A DNA stretch of 64,000 bases from Meira nashicola (taxonomy: Eukaryota > Basidiomycota > Exobasidiomycetes > Exobasidiales > Brachybasidiaceae), in NCBI GenBank assembly GCA_001600355.1, contig BCJU01000003.1:1492519-1556518 (forward strand), written 5' to 3'. Below the pieces are notes generated by a model, which had not been told where the DNA came from, did not search any database, and worked only from the letters and a program-made list of their open reading frames with translations. Shown piece after piece: positions 4,428 through 21,412 of the stretch. The position numbers and the translations under genes are program-made. Each line of letters opens with the position of its first letter. Positions within the stretch are counted from its first letter, which is position 1.

Positions 4428-5138
4428 TTATGCCTTTCCTGAGCGACTTCTGGCCAGTTTTGGAGAACTTGATGGTTCTGATGAAAAATTAGCTGAGCGA
4501 CTCTTTGAAAGTTCTGGATTTCTTGGAGAAGATATATGTCGACCATCACTTAAGTAACCTAACGAAGCAGAATCGTCATGGAACATTTGCGTTACGTAAT
4601 GCACATCTTTGTCGGTAAAGTTGCCTGCTTCTTTATGAATATAAGCATCTTTTCTAATATCTCGCATCTTTTCTCTATGTTTATCCCTTTCTTGTTTAGC
4701 TTCTTCATGCTTTTTATGTAACTTTTTTTCTTTTTTTAAAAGGAAAGTTTGTTTACCTGAAGTTGATTTTTTACGGTCCTTAAGTTCTTTGATATCATCA
4801 GCATACATGTTCATCATTGTATGATGAATATCACGACTACTTTCTGCATGTATATGTTCCCACCATGATGAAGCAACTCTTTCTCCTCCTATACGATTTT
4901 GAATGCCTGGATTTTGGTGGAGATCTCTTGCAAACTTTTCTTCAAGTTCTTTACCGTGATCGGAAAGATTAGGTAAATTAGGATTAGGTTTGTTGGCATT
5001 CGAACTTTTGAAAGCAGAATCGCCAGGATAACGGATTGTAAAATGATCTACTTTTAAATCATTCATTGCTAAAATTCCTAAATCAAGAGGAATAAGTAAG
5101 AGCAAAAACGCAATCAGCATCCTAGGCATATGTTGCAT
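4428..5138 (-). CDS. Secreted family protein, A type (intact)
   Basis: 236 residues. A hydrophobic signal peptide spans about 7-24. Block 1 is NPNLPNLSDHGKELEEKFA (52-70). A WWEH segment (92-95) and NMYADDIK (110-117) follow. A Lys/Glu-rich helical stretch (118-157) precedes block 3, MRDIRKDAYIHKEAGNF (158-174), then LGYLSDGRHISSPRNP (193-208). The tail carries RSRS and ends RSGKA. No cysteine is present. Closest relatives in the window are the genes starting at 6788, 15810 and 18063. It lies at the left end of the head-to-tail cluster with a GCCCCGATC box about 115 bp upstream. Function unknown; secretion is predicted, and an effector role is inference. Confidence 0.85.
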   Translation of the reverse strand: MQHMPRMLIAFLLLLIPLDLGILAMNDLKVDHFTIRYPGDSAFKSSNANKPNPNLPNLSDHGKELEEKFARDLHQNPGIQNRIGGERVASSWWEHIHAESSRDIHHTMMNMYADDIKELKDRKKSTSGKQTFLLKKEKKLHKKHEEAKQERDKHREKMRDIRKDAYIHKEAGNFTDKDVHYVTQMFHDDSASLGYLSDGRHISSPRNPELSKSRSANFSSEPSSSPKLARSRSGKA

Positions 5139-5236
5139 GATTGAAAAATAATAATCAATGATGTGATTAGAGTGAAAGGAAAAATTTTAGTAAACTTAGA
5201 CAATTTAAATATGTTCATAAAAAACCTTTACAGTAC

Positions 5237-5302
5237 ACTATTTACGCCTTGATCGGGGCTTTATAAGGGGGTATAATATTGTGCAAAAACATACCATGGG
5301 GC
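5237..5302 (-). promoter_or_regulatory. Composite promoter of the first cluster gene
   Basis: Read on the coding strand: GCGCCCCATGG, then CTTATAAAG, then GCCCCGATCAAGGCGTAAAT, ending about 100 bp before the ATG. The same order recurs upstream of the genes starting at 6788 and 15810. Confidence 0.6.
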
Positions 5303-5454
5303 GCAGACCATAGAAGGACACTATTGTTTGCTAATCCTTGTACAATCAAAAGTTTTCTTAATGTAATTGCTCTGTGTGTACACAATTTTAAAAGTTCTAC
5401 AATACTTTACGCAAATTGGATTGAAGATTGATTTAAGGTGTCATTTAACCCAAA

Positions 5455-5850
5455 GTAGAATTTAAAAAGGTAAATAGGTTGAATGAACAACATTTTTCTT
5501 GATCAATAATTGTTTGATGATAGGGAAAAGATACTCATGGAAAAAATATTAGCAACTTAAATATCAAAGTGGCTTCATAAAAAATGTAATTGCATAGCCT
5601 CTTAACACAGGTTTATATTTTTGTTTTTGTGAAGTGGATCATTGATTATTATATAAAAGCGGCTTAGGCAAAAAAGGCAATTGTATAGCCACACACGTAT
5701 ATATTTTATGTTTGTGTTTAGGCTTATGTTTGCATACTGAATTATTGATTATTATATAAAAGCGAAAAAATGCAAATATATAATCACAGGTATGCGTTTT
5801 GTGTTTATGTTTAGGCTTGTGTTCATATACTGAATCGTTAATTATTGTAT
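5455..5850 (-). pseudogene. 5' relic of a long-type family gene with triplicated promoter units
   Basis: On the minus strand, 5461-5500 reads as a decayed copy of the start of the gene at 18369-19106 (ATGTTGTTCATTCAAC is shared); homology is then lost. Upstream, three imperfect units (about 5560-5640, 5641-5745, 5746-5850) repeat ATTGATTATTATATAAAAGC and a TTGTGTTTAGGCTT-type segment that match the region upstream of that gene (19170-19290). Only promoter and leader sequence survive. Confidence 0.6.
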
Positions 5851-6032
5851 GTCGCAGGTAAATAAGGCTGGCTAAATTTATTAGTAAGCGCCACTCTCAT
5901 GTACTTAAAAAAGCCATTACTCAGTTGAAAAGAAATATAGAATTCATAAAAAGTGTCTAAAAAAGAAGATAAGAAGAAAAAAAATGACAAGTGATCAAGG
6001 AACTTATATACCTAAGAAAGCGTTTAAGTACT

Positions 6033-6788
6033 CTAAGCTTTGACAGTATTGATTGATGATCCTGAGCGTCTCTTTGTAAGTTTCGGAGAAGTTGATAAAG
6101 CTGAGAGAGGTGAAAGAGAAGTAGCAGAACGGCTTCTTGTAAGCTCAGGGTTTCTTGGTGATGATACATGTCGACCATCACTTAAGAAACCCATCTTATA
6201 AGAACCAGAAAGGTTGGATTGGGTGACGTACGCTACGTCATGGTCTATAAAATTACCTGCTTTCTTATGAACTTTTGCATCATTTATAATATCTCGTATC
6301 GTTTACCTATGTTTATCTCTTTCTTGTTTAGCATTGTTATACTTTTCGTTTAGTTCTACCCCCTTCTTATCTTGCTTTTTCTTAAGTATAGGTATTTTCG
6401 ATTTTGCTTTACCTATTATTAATTGTTTATACTTTTCATGTTCTTTAATATCATCAGTATATCTGTTCATTTTCTTATGATGAGTATTCCGTTCAATTTC
6501 CTCTTGACCATGACGCCACCATAATTTAGATGCTCTTGATATTCCTACTGCTTTAGTATTTATAGGATGATAGTGTTTTGCTAATTCCTCTTCAACCTCT
6601 TTCCCTTGAACGGAAAGATTCGGTAAATTAGGATTAGGACCATTGGCATTTCTCTTGTCAGTATCACGTAACAATGGAATTCTGGTTCGATGTATTGAGC
6701 GTTGATCGTTCATTGCTGAAGTGCCTAAATCATTCGAAATGAGTAAGAGTAAGATTGTAAAAATAATAGCGAGCGTAGTACGCTGCAT
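6033..6788 (-). pseudogene. A-type family gene with one in-frame stop
   Basis: Signal peptide, RDTDKR, and block 1 NPNLPNLSVQGKEVEEELA are open for 161 codons, ending AKQERDKHR. A TAA at 6303-6305 then interrupts. Past it the same frame continues to a TAG at 6033 with the expected family C-terminus: TIRDIINDAKVHKKAGNF, then MGFLSDGRHVSSPRNP, and an RSRS/KRRSGS tail. The full frame is 251 codons with one nonsense codon. The intact paralogue at 17344 has CAA (Gln) at this position. The copy at 15074 carries a stop at the same codon. It is a recent pseudogene, or a truncated 161-residue protein. Confidence 0.75.
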
Positions 6789-6879
6789 GATTTCAAAGAA
6801 TTAATCAACGAGGTGACTGGAGTAAAGAGAACTACTTTAGAAAAACTTGGAACATTTTTATACTTTCATCAAAATTATT

Positions 6880-7345
6880 TGCAGTACACTATTTACGCCT
6901 TGATTGGGGCTAAAAAAGGGAGAAGTATTGTGCAAAAAAAAACACCATGGGGAGTTGAACTATTGTCTGATAAACTGTCTAAAGTCAAAAGGAATTTTGT
7001 GTAAAGTGGCAGTGTTTTATGTTCTTGATTTATAACAATGATTGTTTATAGTATACTGTTTATGCCTTGATTGGGGCTTTAGAAGTATATAGTATTGTTG
7101 TAAAAATATACCATAGGGCGCAGACTACACAAACAAGTATTATTTGATAAGATGTTTAAAGCCAAAAGAATTCTATATACAGTGGCAGTGTTTTGTATTT
7201 TTGGTTGATAATAATAATTGTATACAATACACTGATTACGCCTTGATCGGGGCTTTATAAGGGGGTACAATATTATGCAAAAACATACCAAGGGGCGCAG
7301 ATCATAGAAGGACACTATTGTTTGCTAATCCTTATGCAGTCAAAA
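6880..7345 (-). repeat. Three tandem copies of a family promoter segment
   Basis: ACTATTTACGCC at 6888, ACTGTTTATGCC at 7055 and ACTGATTACGCC at 7231 each lead into TTGAT-YGGGGC, an AT block and an ACCATRGGG-like box. Each copy is then followed by similar AAAAG and TGGCAGTG sequence. The periods are 167 and 176 bp. The array lies directly upstream of the gene starting at 6788. The third copy closely matches the promoter at 5228-5350. Confidence 0.75.
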
Positions 7346-7555
7346 GTTTTCTTAATTTAATTGCTCTAAATATTTTAAACTTGGCACAAGTATGAATTAT
7401 ACGAACTGGCGTGTCTGTATACACAATCATAAAAGCTGAATTGAAAATTGATTCAAGGTGTCACACAATTGATGAAAAATAAATAAAGGAAGAACAGAAA
7501 GCTATATATGACAAGGAATAAGACGTTAAGAATAAGAGAAAGGGAAAATCAGTCA

Positions 7556-8359
7556 TCATTGTCGTTTACGTTTTGAAGTTGCTGTAGAGCTTGATGAAGG
7601 TTTATTAGAAGCATCAGAATTGAGGCTCGGTGTAGGTGAATGAATGCTGTATTTAGTTGAAGAAAGTGAAGGAATACTACTTGAAGAAGAATCTGACTCA
7701 GGCGAATGAGGAGGATATCGCTTAGGACGCGGAATAATTTCTACAGAACTGCTTGGGCTAGGCGATCTACTTCTATATCCATAAGAAGAGCCTTTAGAAC
7801 CTCCATCAGAACCGTATCCTAGAGTTTTTGAAGCTGACCAGATAGGTTTATTAATATAACGTGCATCTTTTTCTCTAATCGTATGAAGCTTTTTATGAAC
7901 ATTGGTATCATGAGCAATATCACGTAAAGTTTGTCTAAATTGATTTTTCTCAATTGATGATTCTTCTTTTAATTTCTTTGTACGTTTCAATTTTAATCCT
8001 ATTATACCATGAAGAGTTTTACTTCCTTGACGAATTTCATTCTTAAAGTTCAAAACGTGTTTATGCCTTGTATTTCTTCGATGTTCTGCATTTCCTTTAT
8101 CATACCACATATCCTTAACTCTTGCTTCTCCTACTTGTGAAGGATGAAGTTTTCCTTTCTTTACACGTTCTTGTAAATCTCTTTCAATTCGTTTACCATT
8201 TTCAGTCAATCCAGGTAAATTTGGCGTAATTTCGTTCGCATGTAATGGCCTTTCATGGGGTTTATTACGCTCTGGAAATGGTTCATTCAATTTTACTGAA
8301 AAGACAAAATTCGTCAAAAGGTAAAAAAGAACTAAAATGAATAAAATTCGTTTTAGCAT
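7556..8359 (-). CDS. Secreted family protein, long (HANEITPNLPGL) type
   Basis: 267 residues. A signal peptide (1-21) precedes the block HANEITPNLPGLTENGKRIE (40-59), shared almost verbatim with the genes at 8842, 16147 and 20618. VGEARVKDMW (77-86) and EHRRNTRH follow. A basic helical region leads to LRDIAHDTNVHKK and LGYGSDGGSKGSS. The tail is Ser/Pro-rich, with RPKR and a terminal KRKRQ that looks like a nuclear localisation signal. No cysteine is present. It has a damaged near-copy at 20618-21412. Boxes lie 98 and 135 bp upstream. Function unknown; secretion predicted. Confidence 0.85.
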   Translation of the reverse strand: MLKRILFILVLFYLLTNFVFSVKLNEPFPERNKPHERPLHANEITPNLPGLTENGKRIERDLQERVKKGKLHPSQVGEARVKDMWYDKGNAEHRRNTRHKHVLNFKNEIRQGSKTLHGIIGLKLKRTKKLKEESSIEKNQFRQTLRDIAHDTNVHKKLHTIREKDARYINKPIWSASKTLGYGSDGGSKGSSYGYRSRSPSPSSSVEIIPRPKRYPPHSPESDSSSSSIPSLSSTKYSIHSPTPSLNSDASNKPSSSSTATSKRKRQ

Positions 8360-8456
8360 TTTGATTTGGGAAAATATGAGTTGAAGGGAAAGGAAAAATA
8401 AAATATTTTGTCATTTATATCCCTATGACATAGAAAGTACGCTTTTGCAGATGTCA

Positions 8457-8498
8457 GCCCCATGCATTTCGTTCAAATGAATTATTCAGAGACGGGGC
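8457..8498 (-). promoter_or_regulatory. Paired GCCCC/GGGGC boxes
   Basis: GCCCC at 8457 and GACGGGGC at 8492-8498 lie about 98-139 bp upstream of the ATG at 8359. The same pair is conserved at 21511 and 21549 upstream of the duplicate gene. Confidence 0.55.
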
Positions 8499-8508
8499 TT
8501 ATGATACG

Positions 8509-8756
8509 ACGCTGAGTTCTAACTATCGCGGTTATGTTCGTATAAACAGTAATAGCTAGGATCGATGCATTTCTGGCTCTAAAGTGTTATTTATATGAGT
8601 TTTTACACATCTTCTGAAGTGGCAAAAGAGAAAATGAATAAGATTGAATTTAGATGAAGTAAAATGAAATAAAGATAAAACAAGGATGGATATTCGAAAC
8701 ATGTCAGGTATGTTACGAGGGAAAAGTATGTATGACATGTCGAAAACGTCAACGCT
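8509..8756. repeat. 243-bp segment present in only one copy of a duplicated block
   Basis: ACGCT at 8509-8513 and again at 8752-8756 brackets a segment missing from the duplicate, where a single ACGCT (21564-21568) runs straight into GTGCGGGCGG. It is either an insertion here or a deletion there between 5-bp repeats. No coding capacity recognised. Confidence 0.6.
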
Positions 8757-8841
8757 AGACATGACTGGGTGCGGGCGGTATGTATAGTGTTGAGTCCAAG
8801 ACAACAACTGTGCGTGAAATAAGAGAACAGAAAGTATTTAG

Positions 8842-9637
8842 TCATCTTTGTCGTTTACGTTTTGAAGTTGCTGTGGAGTTTGGTGAAGGTTTATTAGTAG
8901 CGTCAGAATTGAGGCTTGTAGTACGTGAATAATTTGTAAAGGCTACTACTTGAAGAAGAACTTGACTTAGGTGAAGGAGAATGATGAGTTCTGCGCTTTG
9001 GACGTGAAAGGAATTCAAATGAACTACCAGAGCTAGCTGATTTGCTTCTATAGCCGTGAGAAGAACCTTTAGACCCTCCATCGGAACCGTATCCTAAAGT
9101 TTTTGAATCTAACCAAATAGGTTTCTTAATATAATGTGCGTCTTTCTCTCCGATCGTACGAGCCTTCTTATGAATATCCGTATCGTGTTCTACATCACGC
9201 ATCGTTTGTCTAAATTGCTGTTTTTCTTTAGCATTCTGTTCTTTTAGATTTCTTACACCTCTAAGTCGTAAACGAACTCTTCCAGCAATAGTTTGACTTT
9301 CCTGTCGAATTTCATTTTTCAAATGTAAGACACTTATATGTCTATCGTTCCTTTGATGTTCTGCACTTGATTTAGTGTGCCATAATTCCCAAACTCTCCC
9401 TTCTCCCACTGTTCGAGGATGAAGATCACCTTTTACTAAACGATCTTGTAATTTCTCCTCGATACGTTTTCCAGTTTCACTTAATCCAGGTAAATTTGGA
9501 GTAATTTCATTTGCATGTATTGGTCTTTCTCTTGGTGAATTTTTGCTTGCATATGGTTTATCTAGCTTTTTACCTGCAAAAATAATATTTGCTAAGAATA
9601 ACAAAAAACATACGATGAAATGAATTTGTTTCAACAT
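8842..9637 (-). CDS. Secreted family protein, long type, C-terminal frameshift
   Basis: I chose the ATG at 9637 because it directly precedes a signal peptide (MLKQIHFIVCFLLFLANIIF). The open frame runs to 8903, giving 244 residues. It carries HANEITPNLPGLSETGKRIE, VGEGRVWELW, QFRQTMRDVEHDTDIHKKA and LGYGSDGGSKGSSHGYRSK. After a poly-Ser run the frame ends in YKLFTYYKPQF. The family tail (SLNSDATNKPS then SKRKRQR) is preserved in another frame and ends at 8842. A small indel near 8940 therefore removed the basic tail. It is functional with a shortened tail, or an early pseudogene, or a sequencing error. Confidence 0.75.
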
Positions 9638-10036
9638 GTTTTGCAAGAATGAGTTGAAGAGGGAAACAAAAAGATGAAATGAGCACATTTATCATTTAAA
9701 TATACTTTAAATTAGAACGTACGCTTTTACAGCCCCGATTTGTGTATTGTGTATAAAGTCTTTGTGTTTAAAGGTGGCAATACAAATGTCAGCCTCTTGC
9801 ATTTTTCAAGAATGCTGATGATCTGAAACTGAATCTTAGGACAGTGGTTGATGTGATGATCGTATTTCAAGTGAATAATATAAATAAACATGTACAACAA
9901 GCTGAAATGTGTTAAGTTAAAGGTGATTTAAAGAAGATGTTTATATGAAGCATATTGTACGACTTTCTTAAGAATCAGAGATACAATATTTTGCTTTCCG
10001 TACGGTGCGAAATGAAGATCATTAATAGATACGACT
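9638..10036 (-). promoter_or_regulatory. Upstream region with a GCCCCGAT box
   Basis: GCCCCGATT at 9732-9740 lies about 95 bp upstream of the ATG at 9637. The remainder is AT-rich 3' flank of the next gene with nothing else recognised. Confidence 0.5.
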
Positions 10037-10660
10037 TTAGTGCGCCCTTGGATTTCTTGGTGAGCCTTGACTTCTTGGTGAGCCTGGACCTGTATAACCT
10101 AGCTCTCTTGAACTCTTACGTCTACTCATTTTAATTTCATATTCATCTCTATCGTTTAAATGACCGAGTTCTTTGTGTACTGTTGTATCCTTATGAATGT
10201 CACTTAAAGTTTTTGTATGTTCATCCAATTTACGACTTGCATATTTATGTTTCGATTCCATCGTATCAGGAAATATAGATAAAGCTTTACCTAATTTTGT
10301 ATTCATACCACGATTTTTAGACTTATCAAGTTTTTCGTCAAGTCTTAGTTTTTCTTTATGCCAATGATTACGCAAAACTTCCGCCTCAAAGGCTTTATCT
10401 TTTAAGGTAAAGTATCTTAAACGAGGTAACTCTCTTTCAGTATAAGTTATTTCATTTCTTCTTGGCTGTAAAGTTTTTAAAATATCTCTTTCGATACTTT
10501 TGCCATGTTCTGTAAGGCGAGGATGATTCGGATGAGCTTGGTTTGCACTTGAAGAATAAGCATTTAAATCCGGATTTAAAGAGCATGAAATATTGATAGT
10601 CAATACAAGAAGGGCGAATAATAAGCATGAATTGAACGAGAAGAAGGCGTTCGATTTCAT
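10037..10660 (-). CDS. Secreted family protein
   Basis: 207 residues with a signal peptide to about residue 27. Block 1 is HPNHPRLTEHGKSIERDIL. A basic helical centre contains FPDTMESKHKYASRKLDEH. Block 3 is LSDIHKDTTVHKELGHLNDRD, then RELGYTGPGSPRSQGSPRNP. The tail is short. The PDTMESKHK element links it to the shorter members at 13857 and to the 28.4 kb gene (PGTMDYKHK, PGTTDYKFK). Mature part free of cysteine. A GCCCC box lies 89 bp upstream. Function unknown. Confidence 0.8.
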   Translation of the reverse strand: MKSNAFFSFNSCLLFALLVLTINISCSLNPDLNAYSSSANQAHPNHPRLTEHGKSIERDILKTLQPRRNEITYTERELPRLRYFTLKDKAFEAEVLRNHWHKEKLRLDEKLDKSKNRGMNTKLGKALSIFPDTMESKHKYASRKLDEHTKTLSDIHKDTTVHKELGHLNDRDEYEIKMSRRKSSRELGYTGPGSPRSQGSPRNPRAH

Positions 10661-10748
10661 CTTGCTTTAAAGTGAAGTGAAGATGGTTGTTACGAGAAAG
10701 TTGGAACTACTAGATTTCTCTTTTATATAGTTTTTTAAAAATATCAAA

Positions 10749-10860
10749 GCCCCTTTAAAGTTCAATCACTAGCTTGAAAAAAAAGGAATAGTATACGCAA
10801 AACATACGCAAAACATACGTACCACATACGCAAACTGTATGCAAACCACATCAAAGTGTA
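10749..10860 (-). promoter_or_regulatory. GCCCC box and CATACGCAAA repeats
   Basis: GCCCC lies at 10749-10753, about 90 bp upstream of the ATG at 10660. Four to five short direct repeats of the form AAAACATACG or CATACGCAAA run from about 10795 to 10850. Confidence 0.5.
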
Positions 10861-10947
10861 AATTTACACAGAGAGAGAAACTCTAGAACCTCTTGACCTG
10901 AGTGAAATCATCAATCGGGACAAAATTACAAGTATACGATCATAATT

Positions 10948-11434
10948 TCAGTGGCGAATTTGTGATCGCTTAGGACTTGTTGGATAAGCTTTGGCCTTTA
11001 GCTTTTCCTTGGTTGCATCTTGAGGTAAACGACCATTTTTCATATGAACGTCAACATCGGATAAGATACCGTTAACATTTTCACGCCATAAACCAGTAAG
11101 TTCTTTGATATCTTTATGTTCTTGTTGTAATTTTTTATGAGTTCCTGTACAACCAATTGCACATTTAAATCTTTGCATTTTACTTCCCATTTGTTTTTCA
11201 AATTTGTTTCGCTTGCTTTTCTTTAAATGCAATTCTTTCTCCGTGCGCACCTACTTCTTTTTCCATTAATTGCCAACGTTGATGTGGCTTATATTCTTCT
11301 TGTACGCCATTCGCATTCAAATATTTTTCGATTCGATTTCCTGCTCCGGATAATTCTTCATTACCCTCTGCGGCATTTATACTTATCAATAAAAAGTATA
11401 AACCAAATAAGAAATAATAAACTTTCGGTAACAT
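10948..11434 (-). pseudogene. Short family member split by a frameshift
   Basis: A first frame (11198-11434) encodes a signal peptide, then ELSGAGNRIEKYL (block 1) and RWQLMEKE, and stops after EKQAKQI. A second, overlapping frame (10948 to about 11235) continues with KRNKFEKQMGSK and ILSDVDVHMKNGRL, the block 3 signature. A one-base shift in the A-rich stretch near 11200-11230 would restore one protein. It is a genuine frameshift or a homopolymer sequencing error. No intron fits. No GGGGC box was found upstream, only ACGGGCT near 11519. Confidence 0.6.
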
Positions 11435-11728
11435 TATAGCAAAAGTGTGGTCATCAATGAAGATATATTCTGGATAGCGGTATTTATATAGTATAACGGT
11501 TCTATTGAGCGCAATGCTTACGGGCTCATCTTCTTGGAAGCCTCGAAGGCGTATTTAAAGCGCTGCTATATCAAGGGCGGCGTGCAGTTAAAGGACAGAG
11601 GCAGTCGTAACGATAATATTTTACTCAGTCATTTAAAACGATAATATTGTATGAAATAACCAAAAAGATAAAATGAGAATTTAAGGAGAAAAAAGAAACA
11701 AAAGTAGAAATTAAAACACAACATTCTC

Positions 11729-12406
11729 TCACCTCTTTGACGAAGATGCTGTATGACTAAATAAAGCTCCAGTTGGACTTTGATTCGGAGAATTGACTGG
11801 ACTACTTTATGAACTACTAGTTGGTTTACCTTGATAGCCTTTAGAGCTACTTCCGACAGGAGAAGGAGGAGGAGAAACATAAGTAGGATGTTCTTGTCGG
11901 ATAATTTGACGAAGTGATTGTACGGATGCATGTTTTGGAACATGATCACCATTATAAGATTGATAAGTTTTTAAGTCCTTTTCAGCAGCATGAAGAATAT
12001 CATTATAACCTTGTACCATAATTTCTTTGGTATCATGATAATATATATTATTTTCATGATGACGGGTATGCTTTGCTTTATGATTTGCTTTATATATCGG
12101 ATCATCGAGTTTATTTTTCATTTTATTTTTATCATTTAAATGTTTTGTTAATGCTTTAGCACGAATTCCAGTAAATTCTTTAAGTTTCTTCCAACGAACG
12201 TTTGCTCTTTCTTCTTTTGGTACTTTTTGACGTTGTAAGTGTTTCTCTACCCCATTACCTGTATATGAAAGACCATGAAAACGAACAGGTGACTGATTGC
12301 TAGAATGATCTTTTTGAGGACTACTTTGATGGCTTTGTGTTTTATCCACAGACCATACTGTAAGAATTAAGTTTAAGAAATAAATAAAAACAATAAAACT
12401 TTTCAT
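11729..12406 (-). CDS. Secreted family protein with premature stop near the C-terminus
   Basis: 199 residues are open to a TAA at 11807-11809. Signal peptide to about 20, block 1 HGLSYTGNGVEKHL, RWKKLKEF, a Lys-rich helical centre, then a divergent block 3 (YNDILHAAEKDLKTYQS). The tail is Pro/Ser-rich. In the same frame beyond the TAA, 25 more codons (SSPVNSPNQSPTGAL to SSSKR) run to a TGA at 11729, so the tail was probably longer. Little function is likely lost. The upstream GCCCCGATCC box (12532) overlaps the 3' end of the next gene. Confidence 0.7.
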
Positions 12407-12483
12407 TTTGCTGTTTATAATTGTTGTAAAGATAAAAGAATCATAGAAAGGCTTAAATATAAGGCACCTTTATGGCTTATTGC

Positions 12484-13008
12484 TTACATATTATATAAAT
12501 CATGCCCTTTTCCACTGCCTAGCCCCGATCCAAGGCTGTGACAACAAAAGGATGCGTATATGATAGCAAGTCTTTTAATAAACAAAATTTGAATAAATAC
12601 AGTCTGACGAATAAACAGTATATAAAAAGTTATATATAAGGTTTCGCGTAATGTATTTAAATGACCATCATTCTCCATTTTATGAACATCGATTTTGTCT
12701 TCCATTTTACGATGTTTATTTGGTATGATCACTTTACGTAAACCAGCATTTTTATTGAATTTCTTTTCCAGCCTTTTAATCGTGCCTTGACTTTTCATCA
12801 TATCGCCTTTATTCTTTATAGCTGACTCAACGAACAATTTTTCTCTTTGAATCTTTTTATTCTCGCCTTCAAAATTACCTTGATGTAGCTTTTTCTCAAT
12901 TGTATGACCGTGTTCAGAAAGACCTTTAGGAATATCAGCACCATTTGTGCAAGCGATAAGGACGGCATATACCTTTAAGAAGATGTATAAAATTACTTTA
13001 GACTTCAT
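12484..13008 (-). CDS. Short secreted family protein, degenerate C-terminus
   Basis: 174 residues. Signal peptide to about 22, block 1 IPKGLSEHGHTIEKKL, then a Lys-rich helical region with NKHRKMEDKIDVHKMENDGH in place of block 3. After about residue 120 the frame becomes hydrophobic and unrelated to the family and ends in GSGLGSGKGHD, encoded by sequence that contains the GGGGC box of the downstream gene. The true C-terminus may have been lost by a frameshift near 12650. Confidence 0.6.
   Translation of the reverse strand: MKSKVILYIFLKVYAVLIACTNGADIPKGLSEHGHTIEKKLHQGNFEGENKKIQREKLFVESAIKNKGDMMKSQGTIKRLEKKFNKNAGLRKVIIPNKHRKMEDKIDVHKMENDGHLNTLRETLYITFYILFIRQTVFIQILFIKRLAIIYASFCCHSLGSGLGSGKGHDLYNM
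12532..12536 (-). promoter_or_regulatory. GCCCCGATC box
   Basis: It lies 126 bp upstream of the ATG at 12406, inside the nominal 3' coding end of the neighbouring gene. Confidence 0.45.
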
Positions 13009-13141: not shown

Positions 13142-13696
13142 TTACTCGTCATCAGAATCCCAATGTTTATGAGGATAATAAGGAGAAATATGCTTGGCAA
13201 TAGAGTGACCTGTTTCCCAATCCATGATGCCTGTTTGATGTAAAATCCTAGCATCATTCAAGATAGCATCAATTTCTTGATCATGTTCAAATCTTTTATT
13301 CATTGCCTTTTTATTTTTATTTTGCTTTGTGGTTGGTACTTTTGTAAGAAATGAAGTTAGTGAAGGGCTTTTGTTATACTTACTCTTATTTAATTTCCAT
13401 TGTAATTGATTTATTTTATTTTGAGCAGATTCACTTGCTTCACGAGCTTGATTACCAAAATGTACCATTTGTACATATCTAAATTTCTTTGCCTTTTCTC
13501 CTGACATTTTTTCCTTCTTTATTTTATCTTCAATTCTTTCACCTAGATGTGATAGAGATTCAATTTTATTTGATGATGTACTTGGTATATCTTTTGCTTT
13601 AGAAGGTGACATTAACCTCTTTGGTGAATGATCTGGTGATGAACAGTACACATGCGTGAAAAGAAAAATGATGAATAAGCTAGCTGAAAGTATCAT
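13142..13696 (-). CDS. Short secreted family protein, acidic tail
   Basis: 184 residues. Signal peptide to about 18, then a Ser-rich stretch. Block 1 is IESLSHLGERIEDKI. The centre is Gln/Asn/Lys-rich (NKINQLQWKLNKSK). Block 3 is IDAILNDARILHQTGIMDWETG. It ends HWDSDDE instead of a basic or RS tail and lacks LGYxSDGR. Boxes lie 100 and 128 bp upstream. Function unknown. Confidence 0.8.
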   Translation of the reverse strand: MILSASLFIIFLFTHVYCSSPDHSPKRLMSPSKAKDIPSTSSNKIESLSHLGERIEDKIKKEKMSGEKAKKFRYVQMVHFGNQAREASESAQNKINQLQWKLNKSKYNKSPSLTSFLTKVPTTKQNKNKKAMNKRFEHDQEIDAILNDARILHQTGIMDWETGHSIAKHISPYYPHKHWDSDDE

Positions 13697-13828: not shown

Positions 13829-13856
13829 TTCAAAAAATACAATCATTAAAAGTCTG

Positions 13857-14534
13857 TTAAAATCTTACTTCATTATGAAGTGTAATTCTTTGCTTTAACG
13901 CTCCTAGTGCTTTTGCGTTAAGCTTTTGAGCGGTTTCTTCGCTCATTCCGTTGTACAAATGATGTATACGAGTATCATGAATTACGTCTGTTAATGCACT
14001 TCCATGTATATTTGATTGTTTTATTGCTTGTTTATGTTTATAATCCATCGTTCCTGGTATCTTTGAACGTATTTTACTTGAAATGGAACTTGGATTCCTA
14101 TGAGCATAAATCATCTTTTGTTCATACGTATTCTGTTTTTCGATTGAATTTTTTAAATTATTTCCTGCGTTTGTAATTCTACCTTCTAAGAATCCTTTAC
14201 GAGAAACATTATTCTTTCCTAACCTTAATTGTTCTTTCTCAAATCGTTTTCCTGATTTTGATAACGATGGTGCTTTTGGTGCTTCTGCCGTCTCTGATGG
14301 AATTGAACGATAACCTGAACTTATCTTTGATGATACGCTTACATTATGAGAAGTCTTTCCACTTCCAGACTTATTAGATTGTGGATAATGACCAAGTTGA
14401 CTAATTTGACTAACTTGACTATAGTGAGTAGAATGACTTCCAGATTTATTTGATGACCCTCTCGATACCGGTCCTCCTATTGAAATATCTGCTGATAAGA
14501 GCAAAAAGATAAAATAAATCTTGAATAAACGCAT
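13857..14534 (-). CDS. Secreted family protein, Ser-rich N-terminus
   Basis: 225 residues. Signal peptide to about 20, then a Ser/Gln/Gly-rich segment (25-85) with HYSQVSQISQLGHYPQ. Block 1 is APSLSKSGKRFEKEQL. A basic centre contains KIPGTMDYKHKQAIKQ. Block 3 is LTDVIHDTRIHHLYNGMSEE. It shares the PGTMDYKHK element with the 28.4 kb gene (PGTTDYKFK), so it is the closest cluster relative of that dispersed member. Function unknown. Confidence 0.82.
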   Translation of the reverse strand: MRLFKIYFIFLLLSADISIGGPVSRGSSNKSGSHSTHYSQVSQISQLGHYPQSNKSGSGKTSHNVSVSSKISSGYRSIPSETAEAPKAPSLSKSGKRFEKEQLRLGKNNVSRKGFLEGRITNAGNNLKNSIEKQNTYEQKMIYAHRNPSSISSKIRSKIPGTMDYKHKQAIKQSNIHGSALTDVIHDTRIHHLYNGMSEETAQKLNAKALGALKQRITLHNEVRF

Positions 14535-15073
14535 CGTGATTGTTGTTCAAAGAGAAAATGATTAAATATTAAAAAAGCAACATAAAACTCACCGCCTTAC
14601 GGACTTAGAATGGGCGCTGTAATCATCATCATTATCTTTAGTGTACATTTTTAGGCGTAACATTCATAAAAGAACGTGCCAATAAAGAATTCATTTTACT
14701 TGGCATCGTTTCTCTCGTTATTATAATCGGGCTTAACTGAAGACGGGGCATTGATCGGGTAAAGAAGAACTGGCATCAATTTGTTCGGGGGGCTTTATTT
14801 TTATATTATGTTGTTTATACTATATTGTCTCTTTCTCTAAAAAAATATCAAATAGTGATCAACAGACTTTATAGAAATTTAATTAAATTTATGAGAAGAA
14901 AAGAAATAAAGAGAGATACGAAAGAAGATGAAAATAATAAAACGATAAAAACAAATCATTAGAGGGTAAAAGGTCAGAAGAAAAGAGAATGAAGAGATAG
15001 TATAAAAGAGGACTTTAAAGCAGCTTTTATACGTGAAAATCTCTTTTAATTTCTTCAACGCTTTTTACCTATT
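14535..15073 (-). promoter_or_regulatory. Intergenic with GGGGC boxes
   Basis: GACGGGGC (14742-14749) and CGGGGGGC (14786-14793) lie 211-260 bp upstream of the ATG at 14534, further than usual. GGCGTAAC occurs near 14653. The rest is purine-rich with no gene seen. Confidence 0.4.
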
Positions 15074-15810
15074 CTATAGCTTTCCTGAGCGAATCTTTTT
15101 GAGATTCGGAGAAGTTGATAGAGTTGAAAGAGGTGAAAGAGAAGTAGCAGAACGACTTCTAGTAAGCTTAGGGTTTCTTGGCGAGGATACATGTCGACCA
15201 TCACTTAAGAAACCTATCTACAAGATTGATCAAAGTTAGGTTGGGTGACGTATACTACGTCATGGTCTATAAAGTTGCCTGCTTTCTTATGAACACGAGC
15301 ATCATTTCCAATATCTCGCATCGCTTATCTATGTTTATCTCTTTCTTATTTAGCATTATTATAATTTTCGTATAGTTTAGCCCCCTTCTTATCTTGCTTT
15401 CTTCTAAGTATAGGTATTTTCGATTGTACTTTACCTATCTTTGATTGTTTATACTTTTTATATACTTTAATATCATCAGTATAATTGTTTATTCTTATAT
15501 GATGATAATTACGTTTATTTTCCTCTAGACTATTACGGTGCCATAATTCTAATGCTCTTACTGTTCCTACTGCTTTAGTATTTGTAGGATGATATTGTCT
15601 TGCTAATTCCTCTTCAACCTCTTTCCCTTGAATGGAAAGATTTGGTAAATTAGGATTTGGACTATTGGCATTTCTCTTGTCAGTATCACGTAATAAAGGA
15701 ATTCTAATCTGATCTATATCACCAAGGTGCATTGCTGAAGTGCTTGAATCATTAATCGAAATGAGTAAGAGTAAGATTGTTGCAAAAAGAATCGAAAGCA
15801 TACGTTGCAT
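15074..15810 (-). pseudogene. A-type family pseudogene: two stops and a frameshift
   Basis: The frame is open from the ATG at 15810 for 154 codons: signal peptide, RDTDKR, NPNLPNLSIQGKEVEEELA. A TAA (15346-15348) follows AK. Downstream the frame reads ERDKHR, another TAA (15328-15330), then AMRDIGNDARVHKKAGNF. A one-base loss near 15215 shifts the LSDGRHVSSPRNP part to another frame. The second TAA is at the same codon as the single stop in the copy at 6033-6788, so the two copies derive from an already interrupted ancestor or a gene-conversion event. Confidence 0.75.
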
Positions 15811-15898
15811 AATTTAATCAACAAGGTGGTTAGAGTAGAATGAAGCCTTTGAGCAAACTTGGTTTATTTAATGCTTTCGTCAAGACTAATTGTAGTAT

Positions 15899-16116
15899 AC
15901 TGTTTACGCCTTGATTGGGGCTTAAAAAGGGAGATGTATTATGCAAAATCACACTATGGGGCGTAGATCATATAAGCAACTTTTATTTGATAAAATGTTT
16001 GAAGCCAAAAGGAATTTTGTGTAAAGTGGCAATGTTTTGTATTTTTAGTTGATGATAATGATTGCATTTTCAATATAAAAAGCTCTATTTATAAACAAAA
16101 GGGTCCAGATCGGGGC
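15899..16116 (-). promoter_or_regulatory. Composite promoter and intergenic boxes
   Basis: ACTGTTTACGCC (15899-15910) plus TTGATTGGGGC (15911-15921) and ATGGGGC (15956-15962) copy the promoter type of 5237 and 6888, about 90-150 bp upstream of the ATG at 15810. ATCGGGGC ends at 16116. Confidence 0.55.
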
Positions 16117-16146
16117 AAAGCTATGTACAGAGAGAAGTACTGATGA

Positions 16147-16950
16147 TCAAATATGACGCTTCATCGATGATGATGCCGTTGAACGAGAGGGAGATTGAAG
16201 AGATCTAGATCTAGATTGACTAAAACTCTCAGGAGAAGAAACGTTTGGGAGAGATTCGGATGATGAACTTGAACCGTTTGAGTGAGAAGGAGTAGGACGT
16301 GAAGGGCGAGCGGTAAGAAAATCCCATGGACCCATAGTACTTGGACTAGGAGAACTAGTACGATAACCATAAGAAGAACCGTTTGATCTTCCATCGCTAT
16401 GGTAACCTAATTCTTTTGATTCTTTCCAATTTGAATTATTTATATGTTTTACGTCTTTATCGCCAAAAGTTTTAAGTTTTTGATGAATTGCTGAATCGTG
16501 AGCGATATCTTTTAAAAGTTGTCTACTCTTTCCTTTTTCATTTCTTTCATGTTCTAGTTTACGATAAACATCTCCATCTAATAATTTAAATCTTCCTTTA
16601 TATGTTCGACTGTTTTTACGAATATCCTTTTTATATCTGAGTGCTTGAGTATGATGTTGATTACGTTTATATTCTGCTTTTGAACGTGCCCATGAAGTTT
16701 CAATCATTCTATCAGTTCCAACGTCTTGAGGTTTAAGTTTTCCTGTTTTAACGAGAGATTCTAAATCTTTTTCAATCTTTCTTCCATGTTCACTTAATCC
16801 TGGTAAATTTGGAGTGATTTCGTTTGCATGAATTGGTCTTTCTGGTGATTGATTCGGTGAAGGTATGAAAGTTCTTCCCGATAAAGAGATAGGAATAAAG
16901 TATAAGAAGCTAATAAAAAGCAACTTGGGATAAAACATCATTTTCACCAA
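16147..16950 (-). CDS. Secreted family protein, long (HANEITPNLPGL) type
   Basis: 267 residues. Signal peptide to about 24. HANEITPNLPGLSEHGRKIE, then VGTDRMIETSW and EYKRNQHHTQ. The centre is basic. Block 3 is LLKDIAHDSAIHQKL, followed by LGYHSDGRSNGSSYGYR. The tail has RSRS and PSRS and ends MKRHI rather than KRKR. Intact. It is followed 336 bp downstream by the A-type pseudogene at 15074, a dyad like those at 7556/6033 and 18369/17344. Mature part free of cysteine. Confidence 0.85.
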   Translation of the reverse strand: MVKMMFYPKLLFISFLYFIPISLSGRTFIPSPNQSPERPIHANEITPNLPGLSEHGRKIEKDLESLVKTGKLKPQDVGTDRMIETSWARSKAEYKRNQHHTQALRYKKDIRKNSRTYKGRFKLLDGDVYRKLEHERNEKGKSRQLLKDIAHDSAIHQKLKTFGDKDVKHINNSNWKESKELGYHSDGRSNGSSYGYRTSSPSPSTMGPWDFLTARPSRPTPSHSNGSSSSSESLPNVSSPESFSQSRSRSLQSPSRSTASSSMKRHI

Positions 16951-17065
16951 AGATTGTTATTGTAGTACTGAATGACATTGATGTTGGAAAAATGTATACG
17001 TTTTATACGCCTGAAATTAAACAAAATTTGTTTTGGCGTTGTTGTGTACACGTTTTGTAAAGGAT

Positions 17066-17096
17066 GTCCCCGAATTCATCAATAACAGAAAGGGGC
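17066..17096 (-). promoter_or_regulatory. GTCCCCG and AGGGGC boxes
   Basis: Boxes at 17066-17072 and 17091-17096 lie about 116-146 bp upstream of the ATG at 16950. A TACGCC core lies at 17007-17012. The remaining 17100-17340 is AT-rich 3' flank with no gene seen. Confidence 0.5.
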
Positions 17097-17343
17097 TTTT
17101 TTATCTTACGCAAACATTCTGAGCGACTATTTGAAGAAAAATTCAAGTTTAATGAAAATTGAAAGAATCAAAAGTTCTATAACAATAGGGCATGCGATCA
17201 ACCAAAAATGTTTAATAGATTTTCATTGAAATATTCAAAGATAAGAAAGAGAGAAAATAAAGAGGATAAAAAGATAAAAGGAAGTATAAACATCGCAGTC
17301 TTTACACGCATAGGCCAGCGTTTAACGAGAATAGATCATATCC

Positions 17344-18063
17344 TTATGCTTTTCCTGAGCGACTTTTTCTCAAGTTGGGAGAAGTTGGTGAACTTGATGT
17401 AGAAGTAGCAGAACGACTTCTTGCAAATTTTGGGTTTCTCGGAGAGGAAACGTGTCGACCATCACTTAAGAAACCTAATTTATGAGAATCTTCAAAGAAC
17501 ATTCGGGTTGCATAGCGCACGTCATAATCGTTAAAATTACCTGCTTTCTTGTGAACATTGGCATCGTTTGCTATATCTCGCATACTTTGCCTTGCTTTTT
17601 CTCTTTCTTGCTTAGCATTATTATATTTTTCATTTAATTCTCTTTCTCTTTCTTTTTGCTTTGTTTTAAGATTAGGTAATTTTGACTTCAACTTACCAAT
17701 CATGGAATTTTTGCTTTTTTGGTGCGCTTTTATTTCATTAGTGTAATCGTTCATAGCGATTTGTTGAAGATTGCGTTCTTTTTCTCCATGTCCATATCCC
17801 CACCATGTTGAAAAAACTCTATCTCCTGCTACATGTCTTTGTTGATAATTTGGGTTAATTCGAAGACTGCTTGCTAGCTCTTCTTCAACTTTTTTCCCAT
17901 GAACGGATAAATTTGGTAAATCAGGATTAGGAACATTAACATTAGGTGAAGGTCTAGTTGAAGGTTCTTTAGAAGCCCGAATATAGACATGATCCGTTGC
18001 TAATACGCCTAAATTAAACGATATGAGTAAGACTATGAAAAACATGGTAATCGTACGACGCAT
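17344..18063 (-). CDS. Secreted family protein, A type (intact)
   Basis: 239 residues. Signal peptide to about 22. NPDLPNLSVHGKKVEEELA, WWGYGHGEKERN, MNDYTNEIK. A helical Lys/Glu stretch (LNEKYNNAKQEREKARQ) precedes block 3, MRDIANDANVHKKAGNF, then LGFLSDGRHVSSPRNP. The tail has RSRS and SRSGKA. It is the best-preserved A-type copy and shows what the interrupted copies lost: its Gln codon (CAA) in ARQSMRD is TAA in two paralogues. It sits 306 bp downstream of the long-type gene at 18369. Confidence 0.87.
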   Translation of the reverse strand: MRRTITMFFIVLLISFNLGVLATDHVYIRASKEPSTRPSPNVNVPNPDLPNLSVHGKKVEEELASSLRINPNYQQRHVAGDRVFSTWWGYGHGEKERNLQQIAMNDYTNEIKAHQKSKNSMIGKLKSKLPNLKTKQKERERELNEKYNNAKQEREKARQSMRDIANDANVHKKAGNFNDYDVRYATRMFFEDSHKLGFLSDGRHVSSPRNPKFARSRSATSTSSSPTSPNLRKSRSGKA

Positions 18064-18168
18064 GGCTTCAGACAGATCAAAGTTTGATAAAGTAGAAAGA
18101 AAACCTTTTTTTTACAAAATAAAATGATTTAAAAACTACCTTTTTGTAATACGCATTTTGCGCTTCAA

Positions 18169-18220
18169 CGGGGTTTATACAATTATGCAAGCAGGTGTAT
18201 GCAAAATTACACAATGGGGC
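18169..18220 (-). promoter_or_regulatory. CGGGG and GGGGC boxes
   Basis: ACGGGG (18168-18173) and ATGGGGC (18214-18220) with a TACGC core (18150) and TATGCAA repeats between them, 106-157 bp upstream of the ATG at 18063. Confidence 0.5.
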
Positions 18221-18368
18221 TTAAAAATATCAATCAGATTTGAACGGGATATGATCAATTTAAATATATAAGAGGATAAAATGGAGAAAGTGATATAGAA
18301 GGAAATAATGTTGAATAGTCATAAAAGATGAAAAGATAATATAAATATCAAGAAGATTTACGGCGAGG

Positions 18369-19106
18369 TTAATGCCTTGTTGAACCGGGAGATTTACGGC
18401 TTGCTGAATCAGGAGATAAAATACGTGGACGTTTGAATTCTGATTGGCCTGATGGAGAACCCGGTCGAGCTGAAGCTGATGAAGAGGCCGCTTCTGATGG
18501 TTTTCTCTTATAACCAGATGAATGATGAGGAGAATTTTCGTCGCTTGTATAACCTAGCTCACGAGTCTTTTTATAAATAGGATAATTGATTCTACGTTGA
18601 TCTTTTTCACCAATATAACCGTGTTCTTTAAGAATTTCAGAATCGATAGCGATATTACGTAATTTATTTTGATAACGAGCTTTTTGAGTTAATGCTCGAT
18701 CAAGTTTTTCTGTTACTTTTCTAGTTTTATAACTTTCAGAAGGTAAAAGTCTACGAGCTTTTTCAGTATATTTATCTACAGCTTCATGCTCTCTATTTCG
18801 TTTTGCTTCTGTATGACCTTTTCTGAACCATGTATCTCTAACCCTTTCGTCTCCTACTAAACTTGGATGTCTTCCTGACTCTAAGCCTTCATATAAGTGT
18901 TTTTCAACTTTTTTACCATGCTTACTTAATCCTTGTAAATTCATATTAGCAGTACTTGCAATTGGATTTCGCTCGTCTGGAGTGTTCATCTTAGGTAAAG
19001 GACTAACGATTTCTAAATCGTCTACAGCTCTTGGATACATCGAGTTTGCCAAAGACACAATGATAGATAAAAGATAAATAAGTTGAATGAACAACATGTT
19101 TTTCAA
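18369..19106 (-). CDS. Secreted family protein, N type
   Basis: 245 residues. Signal peptide to about 22 (MKNMLFIQLIYLLSIIVSLA). Block 1 is LQGLSKHGKKVEKHLYEGL; VGDERVRDTWF and EAKRNREHEA follow. The centre is basic. Block 3 is RNIAIDSEILKEHGYIGEKD, then RELGYTSDENSPHHSSGYK. The tail has YKRKP, FKRPR and SRKSP. Decayed 5' copies of this gene occur at 5455-5850 (minus) and 31200-31500 (plus). No GGGGC box within 150 bp; only ACGGGCGG about 180 bp upstream. Function unknown. Confidence 0.85.
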   Translation of the reverse strand: MKNMLFIQLIYLLSIIVSLANSMYPRAVDDLEIVSPLPKMNTPDERNPIASTANMNLQGLSKHGKKVEKHLYEGLESGRHPSLVGDERVRDTWFRKGHTEAKRNREHEAVDKYTEKARRLLPSESYKTRKVTEKLDRALTQKARYQNKLRNIAIDSEILKEHGYIGEKDQRRINYPIYKKTRELGYTSDENSPHHSSGYKRKPSEAASSSASARPGSPSGQSEFKRPRILSPDSASRKSPGSTRH

Positions 19107-19431
19107 TGACTTGTTGTATGATGATGAGGATAAAGATACTTTTAGAAAAGATAATTAGTAACTTATATAGTTTAGTCGCTTCACAAAAAAAAATGCAAAT
19201 GTATAGCCACTCAACACAGGTTTGCATTTTGTGTTTGTGTACTAAATCGTTGAATATTATGTGTCGCTGGTCAATAAGGCTGGCTAGATACGGGCGGAGC
19301 ATCAATTCAATAAACATACACACAACATATACACGTCCTGCTAAGATAAATTTCTAAGAAAAATCAAGATTGGTAGAAAGAATAAAAAAGAAAGATAGAG
19401 GTATATATAAGTGGAAAATCGAGAAAATAAT
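19107..19431 (-). promoter_or_regulatory. N-type promoter region
   Basis: This segment (ATGCAAATGTATAGCC, GTTTGCATTTTGTGTTTGTG, GTCAATAAGGCTGGCTAGA) is repeated at 5560-5880 and, in reverse orientation, at 31220-31330, so it is a mobile or duplicated promoter unit. No GGGGC box. Confidence 0.5.
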
Positions 19432-20064
19432 TCATGGTGATGGACTTGAACTACGTGAAGGAGGAGGAGAGGGAGAACGACTTCTATAACCAGGCTTTGA
19501 AGTAATTCTTCCGTCATGATTATATCCTAATGCTTCTGAGTCGTGCCAATTGTACGTTGTAACACGGCTCACATCATCTTCGTTCATATTTCCATGCTTT
19601 AAATGAATATTTGCATCCGATACGATCTTTCGTATAATCTCTTTATTTTTAGCTTTATTATTTAAAGCATACTTATGACAACTCTCCGTTGTTGTACAGT
19701 CAGCTGATCGAAGATGATATTTGATTGAATTTAAGCTACGTCCTTTTTCTTTGAGTTCTTTCCTTGTATCTAATTCACTTTGCTTAGCATGATTTCGTCC
19801 TGCTTGAGCTATTGCCATCCTGTGACGTAATTCTGCTACACGATGTTCACCTACTCGATGCCATCCTAACTCTTTATTCTTTACTGATTCGTACAATCTA
19901 TTTTCAACTTCTCTACCATGTTTCGATAATCCCTCAAGTTTAGAATTTGGTAGGTTATAATTCTTACCGCGATGTTCATAGACTTCATTATGACGTCCTG
20001 TATCACTAGCCATAACAACAACAAACATGTGTAGCATAGTATAAATGAGAATACTTGCAATCAT
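19432..20064 (-). CDS. Secreted family protein, N-related, two cysteines
   Basis: 210 residues. Signal peptide to about 19. Block 1 is LEGLSKHGREVENRLYESV, then VGEHRVAELRHRM. The centre includes SADCTTTESCHKYA, the only cysteine pair in a mature cluster protein apart from the frameshifted copy at 10948. Block 3 is KIVSDANIHLKHGNMNEDD, then LGYNHDGRITSKPGYRSRS. The tail is SPPPSRSSSPSP, close to RS-repeat composition. A GCCCC box lies 171 bp upstream. Intact; function unknown. Confidence 0.82.
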   Translation of the reverse strand: MIASILIYTMLHMFVVVMASDTGRHNEVYEHRGKNYNLPNSKLEGLSKHGREVENRLYESVKNKELGWHRVGEHRVAELRHRMAIAQAGRNHAKQSELDTRKELKEKGRSLNSIKYHLRSADCTTTESCHKYALNNKAKNKEIIRKIVSDANIHLKHGNMNEDDVSRVTTYNWHDSEALGYNHDGRITSKPGYRSRSPSPPPSRSSSPSP

Positions 20065-20617
20065 TAAAGATTTATAATAATTATTAGAGAGTAGTTGAAC
20101 AAGAATAAGAAGGTGATGTTATGATACCGGGAAAAGCTTTCTCAGTTTAAAAATCTCTTCTTAAATAGCTTCAAATTCATAAATTTTTCAAATTTTTTAA
20201 GGCGTAAGTAGTTGAACACAGGATTTATCCTGTTGCCCCTTTTACAAGTTTATATACGCAAATATTAACGACGAAAACGTCAGTAAATAAGGGATTAGAA
20301 GAGCAAAAATACAGAACGCCTTAAAAGGGTCTTTGTCATTGTGCAGTGCTATGCAAAATCATACCATGGGGCGCAGATCACATAAAGACCATTTTAAGTC
20401 AAACGTTTTCTTAATGTAGTTGCTTTTGATATATTAAATTTGGCACAAGTATGAATTGTACGAACTGGCATGTCAATGTACATAATTTTAAAAGCTGAAT
20501 TGAAAATTGACTCAAGGTGTCACACAATCGATGAAAGAAAAATAAAGGAAGAATAAAAAGCTATATATGACAAGGAATAAGACGTTAACAATAAGAGAAA
20601 GGGATAATTAGTCATCA
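20065..20617. promoter_or_regulatory. Intergenic with boxes and duplicated flank
   Basis: TTGCCCC (20233-20239) and GGCGTAAGTAG (near 20202) lie upstream of the gene at 19432. ACCATGGGGCGCAGATCA (20361-20378) and the next 200 bp are a copy of 7290-7500 and, in part, 5295-5445, that is, the shared 3' flank of the long-type genes. Confidence 0.5.
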
Positions 20618-21412
20618 TTATCGTTTACGTTTTGAAGTTGCTGTAGAGCTTGATGAAGTTTGATTAGAAGCATCAGAATTGAGGCTCGGTGTAGGTGAAT
20701 AAATTTTATATTTAGTTGAAGAAAGTAAAGGAATATTACTCGAAGGTGAACTTGATTTAGGCAAATAAGGAGGATAATGAGTATATCGCTTATCTACTGA
20801 ACTACTTGGAGTAGGCGATCTACTTCTATAACCATGAGAAGAGCCTTTAGAACCTCCATCAGAATCATAACCTAGTATTTTTGAATCTGACCAAACAGGT
20901 CTTTTGATAAATTGTGCGTCTTTTTCTCCAATCGTATGAAGCTTTTTATGAACATTGGTATCATAAGCAATATCACGTAAAGTTTGTCTAAATTGATTTT
21001 TCTCAATTGATGATTCTTCTTTTAATTTCTTTGTACCTTTCAATTTTAATCCTATTCTACCATGAAGAGTTTTACTTCCTTGACGAATTTCATTTTTAAA
21101 GTTTAAGACGTTTTTATGTTTTATATTTCGTCGATGTTCTGTAATTCGTTTGTTAAACTATATATCTTTAACTCTTGCTTCTCCTACTTGTGAAGGATGA
21201 AGTTCCCCTTTGTTTACACGTTCTTGTAAATTTTTTTCGATACGTCTACCATGTTCGCTTAAATGAGGTAAATTTGGCGTAATTTCGTTCGCATGTAATG
21301 GTTTTTCATCGGGTTCATTTCTCTCTGGAAATGGATCATTCAACTTAGCTGAAAAGACAAAATTCGTCAAAAGGTAAAAAAGATTGAAAATCAATAAAAC
21401 TTTTTTAAGCAT
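20618..21412 (-). pseudogene. Long-type family gene with one nonsense codon
   Basis: A near-copy of the gene at 7556. It starts MLKKVLLIFNLFYLLTNFVF and keeps HANEITPNLPHLSEHGRRIE and VGEARVKDI. A TAG at 21158-21160 replaces the Trp codon (TGG) of the parent. The same frame then continues to 20618 through FRQTLRDIAYDTNVHKK, LGYDSDGGSKGSSHGYR and a Ser/Pro tail ending KRKR. There is no frameshift, so the lesion is recent. The duplication includes flanks on both sides (about 20315-21630 against 7235-8820). Confidence 0.8.

Follow-up and report, generated by a model that had tools for sequence, protein, structure and literature searches.

The stretch of the Meira nashicola genome analysed here (the window: 64,000 bases, G000:C3:1492519-1556518, from a genome of 17.88 Mb in 20 contigs) raises the question of what a row of short, strongly diverged genes at window positions 4428-21412 encodes. 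A sequence-only reading had taken this row for sixteen tandem minus-strand genes of an undescribed, cysteine-poor, secreted protein family and for an island of virulence or host-interaction genes. We find all 16 copies at 4428-21412, head-to-tail on the minus strand. As intact genes the number has to be reduced: full length and an open frame are seen in ten copies, the C-terminal part is altered in two, and the remaining four are interrupted by stops or a frame break (Table 1). Our best reading is an effector-type family evolving by gene birth and death in the Meira lineage, and we consider it probable that these secreted proteins serve as effectors in the interaction with a host or niche.

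Family membership and distribution

To define the family, a profile hidden Markov model (HMM) was seeded with 12 proteins, ten of the 16 cluster copies and the homologues P0002 and P0003, and run over six-frame open stretches of at least 30 residues from the whole window and two other loci. For 14 of the 16 cluster copies the best-matching piece reaches E <=7e-27, ten of these 14 being seeds. Leaving out one seed at a time, we recovered all ten (11807 at E 7e-7, the other nine at 1e-10 to 3e-56). The family proposed in the sequence-only reading is real. Four of the six non-seed copies also reach E <=7e-27; the remaining two, 10951-11434 and 12484-13008, match weakly and were accepted partly on their LSxxGxxIE motif and position. 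For comparison, no non-member scores better than E 0.35, and among 5600 shuffled sequences the lowest E-value is 0.012. Among the shared sequence blocks of the earlier description, conservation across 21 sequences reaches at least 90% at the L, G and E residues in LSxxGKxIE, at a single Arg and at the D-H-K block's Asp; LGYxSDGR is missing or degenerate in at least four copies (10037, 11807, 13142, 13857).

The family continues past 21412, beyond an amino-acid transporter gene at 21790-23919. The genome holds at least 29 copies, namely the 16 of the cluster, three on the plus strand of the window, six in a second cluster and four scattered ones; genome searches of this kind yield lower bounds on the copy number, and four of the 29 (10951, 12484, 30154 and C1:3255.9k) are weakly supported. 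The guanine-cytosine content is 0.32-0.35 across the cluster region and 0.37-0.46 in 18 of the 21 two-kb bins to its right; one of the three exceptional bins, 30001-32000, coincides with the plus-strand members.

Homologues and family tree

Three protein searches over about 5.8 billion sequences, in which a match needs shared 5-residue words and distant relatives from other genera could be missed, returned 15 proteins. Eight belong to the same genome (P0001, P0004, P0006, P0007, P0009 and P0014 from the window; P0012 and P0013, which match the second cluster) and seven come from outside. The only organism named among the latter is Meira miltonrushii, with FA14DRAFT_153501 (E 1e-47, 45% identity over 80%) and FA14DRAFT_183755 (E 1e-33, 33% identity over 72%); these entries (P0003, P0010) are listed as uncharacterised proteins, represent two subfamilies and carry the same blocks. 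As to annotation, "undescribed" is right, and no Pfam model reaches its cut-off; homologues do exist, the two M. miltonrushii entries and five others. The titles, abstract openings and excerpts searched in open-licence PMC papers contain no description of the family. One Pfam candidate, CaMBD (PF02888), appears in one of 21 members (10037; E 4.6e-5, 23.8 bits against a gathering cut-off of 25); we regard it as a random hit of the kind that a basic helical hairpin can produce. Other Pfam or NCBIfam matches at E <=0.01 occur in one member each, the Pfam ones below the cut-off where shown.

In the tree, the seven outside homologues are spread over five subfamilies, from which we conclude that diversification began before these genomes parted. 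Strong support joins P0003 and P0002 with 4428, 17344, 6303 and 15346, P0005 with 7556 and 8903, P0015 with two genes of the second cluster, and P0010 and P0011 with two others; P0008 lies near 16147 with support 90/94. This tree leaves 10 of 25 inner branches open, and eight rows are long-branched. It also places the intact metagenome protein P0002 very near copy 6303-6788, which is broken here. Judged by sequence, P0002 is close enough to come from a near relative or another strain, and an intact form beside a broken one suggests that decay differs between strains or close species.

Secretion signals and predicted fold

A copy was counted as secreted-looking if a hydrophobic 10-mer lay within its first 30 residues and no membrane segment followed. 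By this rule 27 of 28 copies have a signal-peptide-like N-terminus, compared with one of 34 other ATG-initiated open reading frames (ORFs) of at least 100 residues in the window, and the claim of secretion is upheld as a prediction. The exception is 12484-13008, with a hydrophobic stretch in its C-terminal half. Cysteine beyond residue 30 is absent in 25 of 28 copies, broken copies being judged on their first open piece, and the family is therefore rightly called cysteine-poor. All 18 open copies or domains from this genome that were computed are basic, with an isoelectric point of 9.9-11.2 and a mature charge of +8 to +23.

AlphaFold2 models were obtained for 17344 (predicted local distance difference test score, pLDDT, 85; predicted template modelling score, pTM, 0.70) and for 13142 (pLDDT 85, pTM 0.69). 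For the product of 17344, whose structure prediction had been suggested as a check, the outcome is a helical hairpin. The two proteins are 14% identical and share the same predicted order of a short helix, a long helical hairpin and a short helix; both models are all-helical, with isolated bridge residues in one of the two only. A simple view of the hairpin with a conserved base and a variable tip was dropped after conservation had been measured. No solved chain was matched by profile at E <0.96 or by Foldseek at E <0.84, which leaves room for a distant relation, and the matches of the models in the PDB are no better than common helical arrangements.

Based on these predictions, the product would carry a signal peptide and leave the cell as an all-helical protein that is small, basic and almost free of cysteine. 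Its architecture would comprise a short helix starting at LSxxGKxIE, a long antiparallel helical hairpin and a short helix, followed in many copies by a disordered Ser/Arg/Pro-rich tail. A few near-invariant residues may pack so as to hold the scaffold: Gly and Glu in the first helix, an Arg towards the beginning of the hairpin and an Asp near its end. The remaining hairpin sequence, the hairpin length and the tail differ from copy to copy and may determine the specificity for a binding target.

Selection, turnover and broken copies

The ratio of nonsynonymous to synonymous substitution rates (dN/dS) was estimated pairwise over whole genes by the Nei-Gojobori method (NG86) for 26 pairs that are more than 33% identical, with synonymous sites near or beyond saturation in many of them. 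It is 0.33-0.63 in 23 of the 26 pairs (for example, 0.35 for 7556/8903 and 0.45 for 4428/17344) and 0.90 for a pair of two broken copies, 6303/15346, calculated from their first open pieces. This fits overall constraint on the open copies and its loss in the broken ones. The family is strongly diverged, as had been stated; the divergence is mostly constrained, and positive selection is unsupported by whole-gene pairwise dN/dS. Copies would turn over through tandem duplication, divergence and pseudogene formation.

Introns were considered as the cause of the broken frames and rejected, as the pieces of 10951-11434 overlap while their HMM positions run on and other copies break at in-frame stops; M. 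miltonrushii is also intron-poor according to an excerpt of PMC8476143. We consider an assembly error improbable in two cases, 8903-9637 and one piece of the second cluster, because a protein identical to the former (P0006) is also derived from another contig, of 7329 bases, and the latter is likewise matched by a protein from another contig (P0012); these contigs could stem from the same reads. Such an error may account for the rest of the altered or broken copies.

A shared upstream word

Regions of 200 bases upstream of 12 cluster copies were compared, one per group of recent duplicates (6788, 9637, 15810 and 21412 were dropped). The top 5-, 6- and 7-mers are GCCCC, AGCCCC and AAGCCCC, and AGCCCC or its complement is present in 8 of the 12 regions versus 0 of 23 control genes. 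Among 11 members not used for picking the word, the upstream regions of which had been viewed earlier by the analyst, AGCCCC occurs in 3 (P 0.03) and GCCCC in 7, compared with 3 of 23 controls (P 0.005). Taking all 27 upstream regions together, 17 have GCCCC between -165 and -90 (versus 2 of 24), and 15 have TATAW between -80 and -50 (versus 5 of 24). Three small genes that lie next to the clusters look secreted and are unrelated to the family; two of them (32617 and, on locus L049, 7695) carry GCCCC near -125, and the upstream region of L049 8698 is without it within 200 bases. A common promoter word suggests that the copies may be co-regulated.

An 82-base upstream block around GCCTTGATYGGGGCT occurs five times, in 5205-7280 and 15867-15948. 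The block copies at 7023 and 7199 have no gene directly behind them and may be what is left of a lost copy or a duplication of the promoter.

Effector role and alternatives

AvrM and the WY-domain RxLR proteins are all-helical effectors of rusts and oomycetes that combine a conserved scaffold with a variable surface; the present family, predicted to be helical, may be compared with them. They are not among the PDB matches listed for the two models, an absence that is compatible with a similarity of fold. The family resembles the sequence-unrelated, structurally similar (SUSS) effector families, both in a predicted fold shared at 14% identity, with the limitation that both models come from the same alignment, and in the purifying rather than diversifying selection seen in most pairs, with one short window above 1.

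In its arrangement, secretion signals, constrained divergence, predicted fold, disordered tails and decay, the family is further likened to the Tin2-like effectors of Ustilago maydis, for which an excerpt of PMC9816061 describes subcluster expansion, purifying selection and disordered fusions. With cluster 19A and the Tin2-like genes it shares clustered, tandemly duplicated and diverged genes, secretion being predicted in our case (excerpts of PMC4081774 and PMC9816061), and the likeness to cluster 19A is one of arrangement only. Both sets of genes belong to Ustilaginomycotina, have paralogues lying apart on other chromosomes, are under purifying selection and include fusions to disordered sequence. 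In contrast, the Tin2-like fold has core beta strands according to the same excerpt of PMC9816061, and both models here are predicted to be all-helical; the family is therefore not filed under the Tin2-like effectors. Another comparison is offered by the FTSP salivary proteins of whiteflies, which are small, secreted, derived from fungi, possibly from Meira, and have a relative in M. miltonrushii (excerpt of PMC10583550). By that description, FTSP has relatives in many fungi and some oomycetes, whereas the Meira family was found only in Meira and unnamed sources.

Several observations weigh against an effector family with a uniform fold and promoter. Signal peptides were scored by our own hydrophobicity rule and not by SignalP, and a later Met was chosen as start for three copies (8903, L049 2655 and L049 5746) while controls used the first. 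Both AlphaFold2 models were built on one 21-row family alignment, so that their agreement is not independent; conservation follows no simple pattern of conserved base and variable tip, and within the hairpin it is lowest (0.51) in the first half of the first long helix. Two pairs have a dN/dS of 0.70 (one copy being broken) and 0.87 (16147 versus the singleton on contig C2, both open), and in a mid-hairpin window of 7556/16147 (residues 110-160) dN exceeds dS (0.77 versus 0.68), with short-window values that scatter. GCCCC is absent within 200 bases in 3 of the 12 and 4 of the 11 upstream regions. Finally, the nearest named fungus, M. miltonrushii, is not a known plant pathogen.

The last point also bears on virulence. 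The interpretation in the sequence-only reading holds for secreted-looking, diverged tandem genes of the smut-effector kind, and it does not carry over to virulence, as the Meira fungi known so far live as endophytes or as yeasts of the phylloplane, or act as antagonists of mites (excerpts of PMC8840373, PMC10583550 and PMC7766764). In consequence, the target of the putative effectors may be a plant, a mite or a microbe.

If microbes of the leaf surface were the target, the proteins might be cationic antimicrobial or anti-competitor agents, an explanation that we regard as unlikely. The basic charge of all computed copies and their predicted helices would suit it, as would the reduction of powdery mildew by Meira geulakonigii (excerpt of PMC8840373) and the antagonism of another phyllosphere fungus towards Albugo by means of a GH25 lysozyme (excerpt of PMC7870139). 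However, the core is predicted to be a stable hairpin with conserved polar residues and not a short amphipathic peptide, and the family is nearly free of cysteine. Long disordered tails are also unusual in such peptides. That the proteins are aimed at mites or insects seems improbable: Meira was originally discovered in mite cadavers, and M. geulakonigii is able to kill mites, but the killing is ascribed to toxic metabolites such as argovin (excerpts of PMC10583550 and PMC8840373), and M. miltonrushii, a phylloplane fungus by description (excerpt of PMC7766764), carries the family as well.

We give equally little credit to self-directed functions in cell wall, adhesion or mating that were incidentally amplified. 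Ser/Pro-rich tails can be O-glycosylated and attached to the wall, which speaks for such a role; by the hydrophobicity rule, however, 27 of 28 copies are without a later membrane or glycosylphosphatidylinositol-type segment (broken copies judged on the first piece only), and rapid turnover with pseudogenes is unusual for core wall genes. A very improbable alternative is that the modelled hairpin resembles an SPX domain, which senses inositol pyrophosphates, and that secreted copies would disturb phosphate signalling of the host; the SPX sequence family gave no match at E <=0.01 in any of the 21 members.

Within the effector interpretation, we tentatively consider a broader proposal, somewhat less likely to be right than wrong, of an undescribed all-helical effector superfamily that spans the genus and forms a regulon of its own. 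In it, at least 29 copies in one genome would share one hairpin scaffold, in which a few residues are near-invariant while faces and tails otherwise vary, and an AGCCCC-type word that, as GCCCC, also precedes two of the three unrelated secreted-looking genes. If true, relatives of the smuts that live as endophytes and in association with mites would maintain a stock of effectors built on a scaffold to which no solved structure is convincingly similar. Effector clusters have mostly been known from smuts that cause plant disease. A comparable, structurally coherent set in a lineage of endophytes and mite antagonists would open to experiment the question of whether the role of such clusters lies in disease, in silent colonisation of plants, in the killing of mites or in competition. 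The clusters are compact and could be deleted as a whole, and the scaffold model and the promoter word would help to track down its remaining members among other Exobasidiomycetes.

Family copies and neighbouring genes

Table 1. Family copies in the window and elsewhere in the genome. E-values are from the family HMM unless stated otherwise.
Position	Strand	Feature	Support
4428-5138	-	Full-length, 236 residues, RS tail	E 2e-82
6036-6788	-	Broken: premature stop ends open piece 6303-6788; second piece 6036-6302 downstream	HMM
7556-8359	-	Full-length, 267 residues, KRKR tail	E 1.3e-69
8903-9637	-	Open core; tail frame shifted, unlike neighbour 7556-8359; start at 9637 chosen by analyst, first ATG of ORF at 9688	E 1.4e-55
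10037-10660	-	Full-length, 207 residues	E 3.8e-61
10951-11434	-	Broken, frame lost mid-gene	Two weak pieces (E 0.06, 4e-4), with motif and position as further grounds
11807-12406	-	Open, 199 residues, most divergent of the ten	Left out, E 7e-7
12484-13008	-	Open frame; N-terminal half of family type, C-terminal half unlike family, probably decayed	E 0.096, best domain 0.002
13142-13696	-	Full-length, 184 residues; AlphaFold2 model mb31c0feea2c7	E 2.2e-51, left out 1.5e-11
13857-14534	-	225 residues, Ser/Gly-rich N-terminal insert	E 1.8e-44, left out 9.5e-11
15077-15810	-	Broken, three pieces	HMM
16147-16941	-	Full-length, 264 residues	E 2.6e-74
17344-18063	-	Full-length, 239 residues; AlphaFold2 model mfafbe30a3880	E 3.6e-81
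18369-19097	-	Full-length, 242 residues	E 1.4e-59
19432-20064	-	Full-length, 210 residues, two Cys beyond residue 30	E 2.4e-69
20617-21412	-	Broken, premature stop; sequence and upstream region near 7556-8359	E 6.6e-27
28358-29836	+	492 residues, signal-peptide-like start, family domain C-terminal after long low-complexity stretches	E 3.6e-10
30154-30957	+	Probably broken, two open pieces	Motif only; one piece E 0.61
31749-32276	+	Open, 175 residues, no tail	E 2.4e-8
C1:3289535-3295435		Second cluster, six copies (3 open, 3 broken)	
C2:167696-168568		Single copy	
C1:1617k		Single copy, 238 residues	Profile E 1.6e-9
C1:3255.9k		Short, weak copy	E 0.09; motif and signal-peptide-like start
C1:6234k		Broken copy	E 1.7e-7

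Other short secreted-looking ORFs lie beside both clusters (window 32617-32916; L049 7695-8153, 8698-9099 and one from about 9237). Some of them have a Cys pair in the middle of the protein, and none is detected by the family HMM.

The cluster adjoins a Fanzor/TnpB-like gene on the plus strand (window 630-3670). Its part at 1685-3670 matches Cas12f1-like_TNB above the cut-off and OrfB_IS605 just below it, and the ORF at 630-1172, which is without a Pfam match, looks by eye like the N-terminal part of the same gene. A second close copy was not found in the genome, where one partial match is present on C2 (E 2e-6). Towards the other end of the window, an open frame of 2651 residues (55352-63307, plus strand) carries both an inositol polyphosphate kinase domain (E 9e-37) and a HCO3- transporter domain (E 4e-59), besides long stretches rich in Lys and Glu. 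It may represent an unusual fusion, or else two genes have been taken for one.

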